This document shows, piece by piece, positions 25,843 to 26,785 of a DNA stretch of 39,859 bases. This stretch comes from Candidatus Niyogibacteria bacterium. Its GTDB lineage: Bacteria; Patescibacteriota; Minisyncoccia; JACROR01. Under the pieces are notes generated by a model that ran no database searches, had not been told where the DNA came from, and was given only the letters and a program-made list of their open reading frames with translations. The stretch spans positions 1-39,859 of the forward strand of contig JACPLO010000006.1 in NCBI GenBank assembly GCA_016186495.1, given 5' to 3'. The translations under genes and the position numbers were made by a program. Numbering within the stretch: position 1 is the first letter of the stretch; each line of letters starts with the position of its first letter.

Positions 25843-25915
25843 GCTTGGGTAGCTCAGTCGGTAGAGCACACGCTTGAAAAGCGTGGTGTCGCGGGTTCGA
25901 TTCCCGCCCCAAGCA
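25843..25915 (+). tRNA. tRNA-Phe (GAA)
   Basis: A complete cloverleaf: acceptor GCTTGGG/CCCAAGC, D arm GCTC...GAGC, anticodon stem CACGC/GCGTG with loop TTGAAAA (anticodon GAA), 5-nt variable loop, T arm GCGGG TTCGATT CCCGC and discriminator A. CCA is not encoded. Its 3' 20 nt are repeated exactly at 26056-26075. Confidence 0.97.
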
Positions 25916-26075
25916 TTGCGAGTAAAACGAATAATGCTCGGGGAGCGAAGCAAACTGCTTTGCTTCGCGTCGGGAATCGAAAGGCGGAGCCATGTGCCGC
26001 AAGCACAGGCGAGCCGGGGTCGCGAAAAATTTCCGTCAGGAAATTTATTCGTGACCGATTCCCGCCCCAAGCATT
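25916..26075 (+). repeat. tRNA-tethered structured element A (after tRNA-Phe)
   Basis: The element ends with CGATTCCCGCCCCAAGCATT (26056-26075), identical to 25898-25917, the tRNA T-arm 3' strand and acceptor end. Inside are: hairpin 0 (25945-25968, GCGAAGCAAA/TTTGCTTCGC), CGGGAATCG (25971-25979) complementary to CGATTCCCG of the end copy, hairpin 1 (25989-26010, GCC-TGTGC/GCACA-GGC) and hairpin 2 (26018-26056, GGTCGCGAA+AAATTTCC paired with GGAAATTT+TTCGTGACC). The same layout with compensatory changes follows tRNA-Arg. Minus-strand ORFs here are antisense artefacts. Confidence 0.8.
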
Positions 26076-26137
26076 ATTTTACAAATTTCTTCCTCCTCCA
26101 GCTAATTGTCTGCTATAAACTTCTAACAAAATTTAAA

Positions 26138-26494
26138 TCAAATCTGATTTTCCCGCAAATACTCTTTGATTTTTCTGAAAAGCAGAAAAGCAATGGGCGC
26201 GGCAATAATCATCATCGCCAGACCTTCGGCAATGTCTCTTTTAGCGTCATTATAATCAATTTTACAGACTTCTTTATTAACTTCTTGTCCGGCTGGCGCC
26301 AATTCGGCCGGCGCCGGCCGTTCCGCAACAGGAAGCGGTTTTGAAATATAATCATAACGGCAAGTTTCAACTTTCAGAACATACGCCTTAAAAACAGCAG
26401 TCAATAATTTTCCGCCGCCGAAAATCGCGCTGAAAGAAGTGCCGACAAAAAGCACCACTAAAGCCAGTAAAAATAAAAATCTTAAATAAGCCAT
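26138..26494 (-). CDS. small two-helix membrane protein with a periplasm-facing Cys pair
   Basis: The 118-aa product has an N-terminal hydrophobic helix or signal anchor (LRFLFLLALVVLFVGTSFSA), an extracytoplasmic domain of about 60 residues with a proline-rich run (PLPVAERPAPAELAPAG) between two cysteines (ETCRYDY and EVCKIDY), then a second helix (IAEGLAMMIIAAPIAFLLF) and a basic tail. It is the only minus-strand gene between valS and the recombinase-like remnant. No family recognised. Confidence 0.6.
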   Translation of the reverse strand: MAYLRFLFLLALVVLFVGTSFSAIFGGGKLLTAVFKAYVLKVETCRYDYISKPLPVAERPAPAELAPAGQEVNKEVCKIDYNDAKRDIAEGLAMMIIAAPIAFLLFRKIKEYLRENQI

Positions 26495-26525
26495 ACAAAA
26501 TAAAAACCTATAACCTGCTGATAAA

Positions 26526-26552
26526 TTGACCGTTCCGATTATCTGTTATAAT
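26526..26552 (+). promoter_or_regulatory. promoter of tRNA-Arg
   Basis: TTGACC (26526-26531) and TATAAT (26547-26552) with a 15-bp spacer; TAATAA two bases further gives a 17-bp spacer. The tRNA begins 12 bp downstream. Confidence 0.55.
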
Positions 26553-26564
26553 AATACCATTGCC

Positions 26565-26636
26565 GTCCTCGTAGTTCAACGGTTAGAACGAGGGACTTCT
26601 AATCCCTAAATGGAGGTTCGATTCCTCCCGAGGACA
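26565..26636 (+). tRNA. tRNA-Arg (TCT)
   Basis: Acceptor GTCCTCG/CGAGGAC, anticodon stem AGGGA/TCCCT with loop CTTCTAA (anticodon TCT, reads AGA), T arm GGAGG TTCGATT CCTCC and discriminator A. CCA is not encoded. The last 18 nt are repeated at 26768-26785. Confidence 0.96.
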
Positions 26637-26785
26637 AATGAAAAAATTTAACGAGAACGAGCAAATTGTTTTGCTCGTGAGAAGGAATCGAAAGCCGCAG
26701 CGATGTTCTGCGAAGCAGAACAAGCGAGGCGGGGTCGCAAAAATTTGCGAAGCAAATTATTTGTGACCGATTCCTCCCGAGGACA
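26637..26785 (+). repeat. tRNA-tethered structured element B (after tRNA-Arg)
   Basis: It ends in CGATTCCTCCCGAGGACA (26768-26785), an exact copy of the tRNA-Arg 3' end. Internal parts match element A in order: hairpin 0 (26657-26678, ACGAGCAAA/TTTGCTCGT), AGGAATCG (26683-26690) complementary to CGATTCCT, hairpin 1 (26704-26722, TGTTCTGC/GCAGAACA) and hairpin 2 (26733-26768, GGTCGCAAA+AATTTGC with GCAAATT+TTTGTGACC). Shared single-stranded words are GAAAG, GCGAG and CGGGGTCGC. It ends one base before the next ATG. Confidence 0.8.

Follow-up and report, generated by a model that had tools for sequence, protein, structure and literature searches.

The structured sequences behind the tRNA-Phe and tRNA-Arg genes of the window (the whole stretch of 39,859 nucleotides analysed here) belong to a real, widespread and apparently unnamed family of elements, whose kind is known through the enterobacterial RtT repeats, while its core and host range are new. 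The elements are best read as small, non-coding, non-autonomous repeats that sit at the 3' ends of tRNA and tmRNA genes, duplicate the tail of their host and have a selected fold, a reading to which we give a probability of about 0.55.

Both window elements lie between two exact copies of their host's tail, as the sequence-only reading had described: the 20 nt at 25898-25917 recur at 26056-26075 behind tRNA-Phe (offset 158) and the 18 nt at 26619-26636 recur at 26768-26785 behind tRNA-Arg (offset 149; 24 of 25 positions if the repeat is extended). By our own estimate, the chance of an exact 18- to 20-mer recurring within ~200 bp is of the order of 1e-8 or less. Compared with dinucleotide shuffles, the folds reach z-scores of -8.3 (Phe element) and -7.0 (Arg element). 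The features are as follows:

25842..25916, + strand: host tRNA-Phe (GAA), by ARAGORN and by Rfam (74.6 bits)
25898..25917, + strand: tail copy 1 of tRNA-Phe, C56 to the 3' end plus 1 nt, a direct repeat
25930..25943, + strand: R'' of the Phe element, AATAATGCTCGGGG, complementary to the acceptor 3' strand in tail copy 2, an inverted repeat
25945..25968, + strand: hp1 of the Phe element, GCGAAGCAAA-CTGC-TTTGCTTCGC, from fold and covariation
25971..25979, + strand: L'' of the Phe element, CGGGAATCG, complement of the T-arm 3' strand, from fold, alignment and host-match test
25983..26015, + strand: P2/P3 core arm of the Phe element, GGC...TGTGC/GCACA...GCC, from fold and covariation
26018..26056, + strand: P4 hairpin of the Phe element, GGTCGCGAA...TTCGTGACC, with a conserved G.U near its base, from fold and covariation
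26056..26075, + strand: tail copy 2 (L'R'), closing the Phe element, a direct repeat
26565..26636, + strand: host tRNA-Arg (TCT), by ARAGORN and by Rfam (75.2 bits)
26619..26636, + strand: tail copy 1 of tRNA-Arg, a direct repeat
26657..26678, + strand: hp1 of the Arg element, ACGAGCAAA/TTTGCTCGT, from fold and alignment
26683..26690, + strand: L'' of the Arg element, AGGAATCG, complementary to the T-arm 3' strand of tRNA-Arg, from fold and alignment
26694..26730, + strand: P2/P3 core arm of the Arg element, GCC...TGTTCTGC/GCAGAACA...GGC, from fold and alignment
26733..26768, + strand: P4 hairpin of the Arg element, GGTCGCAAA...TTTGTGACC, from fold and alignment
26768..26785, + strand: tail copy 2 (L'R'), closing the Arg element, a direct repeat

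The interiors of the two elements are homologous, and all of the compensatory arm differences listed earlier from the letters alone are present: hp1 is GCGAAGCAAA in the Phe copy and ACGAGCAAA in the Arg copy, P2 is GGC/GCC against GCC/GGC, P3 is TGTGC/GCACA against TGTTCTGC/GCAGAACA, and P4 is GGTCGCGAA/TTCGTGACC against GGTCGCAAA/TTTGTGACC. The stretch that had been said to match the T arm of its own host is complementary to the 3' strand of that arm, with GGGAATCG in the Phe element and AGGAATCG in the Arg element. The upstream complement of the acceptor strand is present in the Phe copy (AATAATGCTCGGGG, 25930-25943), whereas the Arg copy has none. A coding sequence follows the Arg element, with its ATG at 26787, one base past the tail copy, and its reading frame extending to 28112; the same frame is open backwards into much of the element, to 26703.

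On the tRNA strand, a unit consists of tail copy 1, a spacer that often contains a terminator-like hairpin, R'' (in many copies), hp1, L'', AAA, P2, P3, P4 and tail copy 2, and measures about 90-280 nt. P2 has the form GSC/GSC and is followed by a GNA/GA internal loop and then P3, and the base of P4 retains a G.U pair. Since a second tail copy follows the unit, the tRNA stays complete. The exact run common to both tails begins at C56 and is mostly 18-21 nt long, corresponding to C56 to A73 or CCA. Among 89 copies that were not chosen for tail identity, 48 match at 18 of 18 tail bases, and in some of the remaining copies just the L''-pairing part of the tail survives. At tRNA-Arg (L238) and tRNA-Ala (L231/L237) the first tail ends at C74 and the second runs on into CCA and flanking sequence, which gives the second copy the look of the original tRNA end in CCA-encoding hosts. 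Some elements, read by eye, have GAG in place of the TCG that pairs with C56-A58, which would turn two pairs into two tandem G.A mismatches. A second class of elements (e.g. L048, L053, L080) duplicates only the last tRNA bases and the trailer.

The 654-kb assembly contains at least nine elements in a DNA search. Six of them are close copies at tRNA or tmRNA 3' ends, with further ones besides; the hosts are tRNA-Phe, Arg, Tyr, Leu, Ser, Gly and tmRNA, and there is one orphan. The tRNA-Leu locus carries two tandem units with a period of 158, and the tRNA-Tyr locus an element plus a truncated second unit. At tRNA-Ser (L007:1319-1640) the core is inverted between palindromic arms, which indicates that cores can flip. 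The orphan, on contig 11, lies away from any tRNA and bears the tail of tRNA-Leu(CAA), the gene of which is intact on contig 1 and is without an element. Behind tRNA-Val, two simpler units have the same tail plan with a different interior. Hairpins resembling hp1 (CAAACTGCTTTG core) also occur outside the tRNA elements (L015:250-380; C10:53150 and 53237; C1:134050), which suggests a REP-like hairpin repeat shared with the tRNA-tail element. One integron-like site is found right after the Gly element (L008:1300-1400).

A covariance model was built from six copies of this genome and searched in relatives, as the sequence-only reading had proposed. Of 93 genomes of the same class, 40 give a match at E<=0.01; for the phylum as a whole the figure is 39 of 287 genomes at E<=1e-4, and copy number among the relatives is patchy, ranging from 0 to 13. 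A scan of named genomes for the core pattern gave at least 115 stretches, nearly all of those listed being from Patescibacteria or Elusimicrobiota. One further match, on a viral contig, is a short fragment that carries Elusimicrobium-like repeats together with cellular genes and looks bacterial. The elements were expected to lie 3' of tRNAs with matching end copies, and this is borne out: 101 of 123 assessable copies follow a tRNA or tmRNA of the same strand at a distance of up to 150 nt, 15 have neither within about 500 nt, and tails match in many genomes. Hosts of the tail-verified copies comprise 18 isotypes and tmRNA. The opposite outcome, in which there would be no more copies, or copies devoid of covariation or matching tails, is not what was found. 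Rfam scans at gathering and permissive thresholds gave meaningful matches to tRNAs only, and a literature search found no description of a tRNA-tail hairpin family. The family is an abundant repeat class in genomes of very small size, which usually shed DNA that has no function. It can also mislead tRNA annotation and attachment-site prediction.

The fold is supported by covariation. Across 121 distinct aligned copies, two-sided changes occur at every one of the 46 base pairs and pairing is kept in 94.4% of cells, in an alignment that leans towards structure because it was fitted to the model; with the partners slid, 36-45% are paired, and no shuffle equals the observed values. A MAFFT alignment of six copies, made without the model, gives 17 two-sided pairs. 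Furthermore, L'' pairs better with the tail of its own element than with the tails of others: it does so in 591 of 672 pairs, a score that none of 2000 permutations equalled in a paired-column test. The variable element stems and the tRNA stems at the same loci are similarly poor in wobble pairs (3.2% and 4.3%). Their rarity, considered as a sign of DNA-level palindrome correction, was dropped on these grounds, since a similar rarity in tRNA stems means that wobble usage cannot separate DNA from RNA.

The same evidence bears on the possibility that the elements are RNA selected for the benefit of the host, in which case a co-transcribed 3' trailer would fold with the second tail and would guide processing, protect the precursor or be released as a small RNA like the rtT RNA of E. 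coli. The covariation at all pairs and the G.U retained at the P4 base in most copies speak for such a role, and the internal loops are conserved across two phyla. Covariation of this strictness, together with tRNA-like wobble usage, weighs against the mobile-repeat reading in so far as a selected host RNA would fit it too. The elements lie directly 3' of the tRNA or tmRNA on its strand, and where the acceptor stretch of the second tail is degraded, the L''-pairing part has often been kept. The units at tRNA-His, Ala and Glu are inherited vertically, which points the same way, as does the description of RtT of E. coli and A. pleuropneumoniae as transcribed, a by-product of tRNA operons (PMC4986893). 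A trailer of this kind is harder to reconcile with the T-run of at least four, frequently accompanied by a terminator-like hairpin, that separates the tRNA from the element in 30 of 89 copies, with the patchy distribution among relatives, or with the existence of orphans and an inverted copy. We hold this role to be possible but doubtful.

It had also been proposed that the element could swap with the T arm and acceptor of the tRNA during processing. Put in terms of a T-loop insertion, the tRNA body could pair with either tail, and a distal choice would leave L'' to pair with the proximal tail, switching or delaying maturation. Folding predictions for the whole window precursors do favour distal pairing (0.95 for Phe, 0.88 for Arg), and the median gap between the two pairings is 1.2 kcal/mol over 83 copies; the swap is thus energetically conceivable, as two nearly isoenergetic pairings are predicted. 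This near-degeneracy follows from tail identity alone, and the energy model ignores tertiary structure and folding order, whereas the proximal tail is made first and would be stabilised by tRNA tertiary contacts. Moreover, the sign varies between copies (7 proximal and 27 distal among the 83) and many precursors favour neither pairing. We rate a regulatory swap as very unlikely.

Signs of copying are found in the variable copy number, the tandems, the near-identical cores at different tRNAs, the orphan and an occupied/unoccupied locus. Core identity reaches 0.988 behind different tRNAs of one genome, while behind the same isotype in other genera it is at most 0.663; cores have thus spread or been homogenised within genomes, with arms that are host-specific. 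Host-matched arms are unlikely to have arisen by point mutation alone, and we infer that the arms are re-matched by copying from the target or by gene conversion. Orthologous tRNA-Glu genes in two species of one genus are followed by two units and by one unit. In a second genus, a unit behind tRNA-His is common to two species, with P3 replaced and hp1 compensated, and some copies are therefore vertically stable. The tRNA-Arg/tRNA-His spacer of this second genus is occupied in one case and empty in the other, and the tRNA-Arg gene differs too. Comparison of L238 with L235 shows that the tRNA-Arg(TCT) 5' of tRNA-His has been replaced by a diverged one with an element and a small extra ORF, and that the flank upstream of tRNA-Arg is almost identical. 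Neither a clean empty site with an unchanged tRNA nor a transposition event was seen among the compared loci.

The duplication from T loop to tRNA end resembles attL/attR, and the elements could accordingly be taken for decayed remnants of ordinary tRNA-targeting integrative elements, an outcome that the sequence-only reading had named as evidence against a family of its own. In a scar of this type one would find no core shared between phyla, no covariation at 46 pairs, no tandems and no host-matched L'', and no long integrase-bearing version is present within the loci, so that such an origin is hardly credible. Nor do the 8-kb loci contain a longer autonomous version; only L112 is longer: there, arrays of integron-like cassettes (L112:2288-4120; repeated GGTTCTAACA..., small ORFs of 106 and 117 aa) are interspersed with the tail-copy elements and separate tRNA-Gly from the element.

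A dedicated integrase, reverse transcriptase or transposase for the element was not found. The genome itself has no RVT_1, Y1_Tnp or Cas1 match, and its sole Phage_integrase match is one Xer-like tyrosine recombinase located away from the elements. RVT_1 is not enriched (11 of 40 element-bearing genomes against 35 of 93 overall) and Y1_Tnp shows no association (25 of 40 against 54 of 93). Among 55 relatives, 4 have a Cas1 match at E<=0.001, of which 3 pass the cut-off, and neither Cas1 nor Phage_integrase is associated with element presence. Two genomes of one genus (G006, G035) carry elements and have no detected tyrosine recombinase. Many Patescibacteria among the 93 relatives encode several Y1_Tnp-like proteins of roughly 215-280 aa, up to 8 per genome. 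Of the earlier proposal of a structured RNA or mobile family using tRNA 3' ends, the structured, tail-tied family stands and mobility is supported indirectly, with no enzyme found for it.

As non-autonomous repeats with a selected fold, the units would multiply at the DNA level through insertion into the T loop, with duplication of the 18-21 nt tail and recombination between tails, with enzymes probably acting in trans or belonging to the host. Copying or conversion would fit the palindromic arms to the new tail, and the closed fold (L'' with the tail, P2-P4 with the conserved G.U) may be maintained by selection on the transcript or, alternatively, may be selected as a DNA hairpin read by the moving enzyme. 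Units are observed in tandem, inverted or orphaned, with near-identical cores and with L'' and tails that match each local tRNA. An unlikely extension of this scheme is that insertion itself copies the target tail in both orientations, rewriting the guide arms from the neighbouring tRNA; the hairpin or its transcript would then match its host and could exchange tails with it, with RtT as an independent or very remote branch.

Among known systems, islands and phages that integrate at tRNAs through tyrosine integrases likewise show a block of identity that reaches from the T arm to the 3' end of the tRNA. The present element differs in its size of 150 nt, the lack of an integrase and the host-matched internal complement, and some element-bearing genomes are without any Phage_integrase match. 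Casposons also go into tRNA 3' ends and duplicate their target on insertion (PMC4046053), but the overlap of that target with tRNA genes is just 4-7 nt, and casposons bring with them TIRs, PolB and Cas1, the last of which is absent from this genome. A group II intron, retron or other retroelement finds no RVT_1 match here. REPs and BIMEs are likewise short non-coding hairpin repeats, and hp1-like hairpins occur off tRNAs here as well; the REP-associated Y1/HUH transposase (Y1_Tnp) is missing from this genome. REPs are not known to be tied to tRNA tails or to have host-matched arms.

The closest likeness is to RtT (RF00391), although none of the named families had been thought to fit: its architecture is the same, though its core differs. 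In E. coli K-12, RtT lies behind tyrT, tyrV, the lysT-lysQ group (lysT/W/Y/Z/Q) and lysV, with tail-copy periods of 178, 98-100 and 156, and of 133-139 behind argV/argZ/argQ. The units behind these argV/argZ/argQ genes (L178) are RtT-like (AACGTTGC..GCAACGGCCCGAAGGGCGAG) with an Arg-matched L'', and are not called by RF00391 at E<=0.01. Elements like rtT have been linked to BIMEs (PMC2965389). As in the present family, RtT is directly 3' of the tRNA, has a tail copy at its 3' end and a folded core, and forms tandem units. Its T-arm complement also varies by host (Tyr GGGGAAGGAT, Lys GTGAAGGAT, Arg GGGAGGAT) and forms the closing helix with the tail copy. At lysQ and lysV the terminator is duplicated along with the tail. 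The RtT core, AACGTTGC..GCAACGGCCCGAAGGGCGAG..CGAGT, differs from the GAAAGSCGGAGC..GCGAGSCGGGGTCGCRA..YTGTGACC of the present family, and RtT is without an hp1 of the present type. At its gathering score of 45 bits, RF00391 detects nothing in the window; it has no match at loci L001/L002/L005 at E<=5, and none over the cut-off in 35 relatives, two of which reach about 16 bits; the covariance model of the present family does not find RtT in turn. As neither model recognises the other's family, the present family is not a member of RF00391 but provides a second, unrelated core, absent from Rfam, for the RtT-like plan. RtT, long known as a curiosity of enterobacterial tRNA operons, thereby becomes one case of a general plan that recurs in distant phyla. 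Because L'' tracks the host tRNA in both families, the T-arm complement must matter, and it offers a testable clue to what RtT-like elements do.
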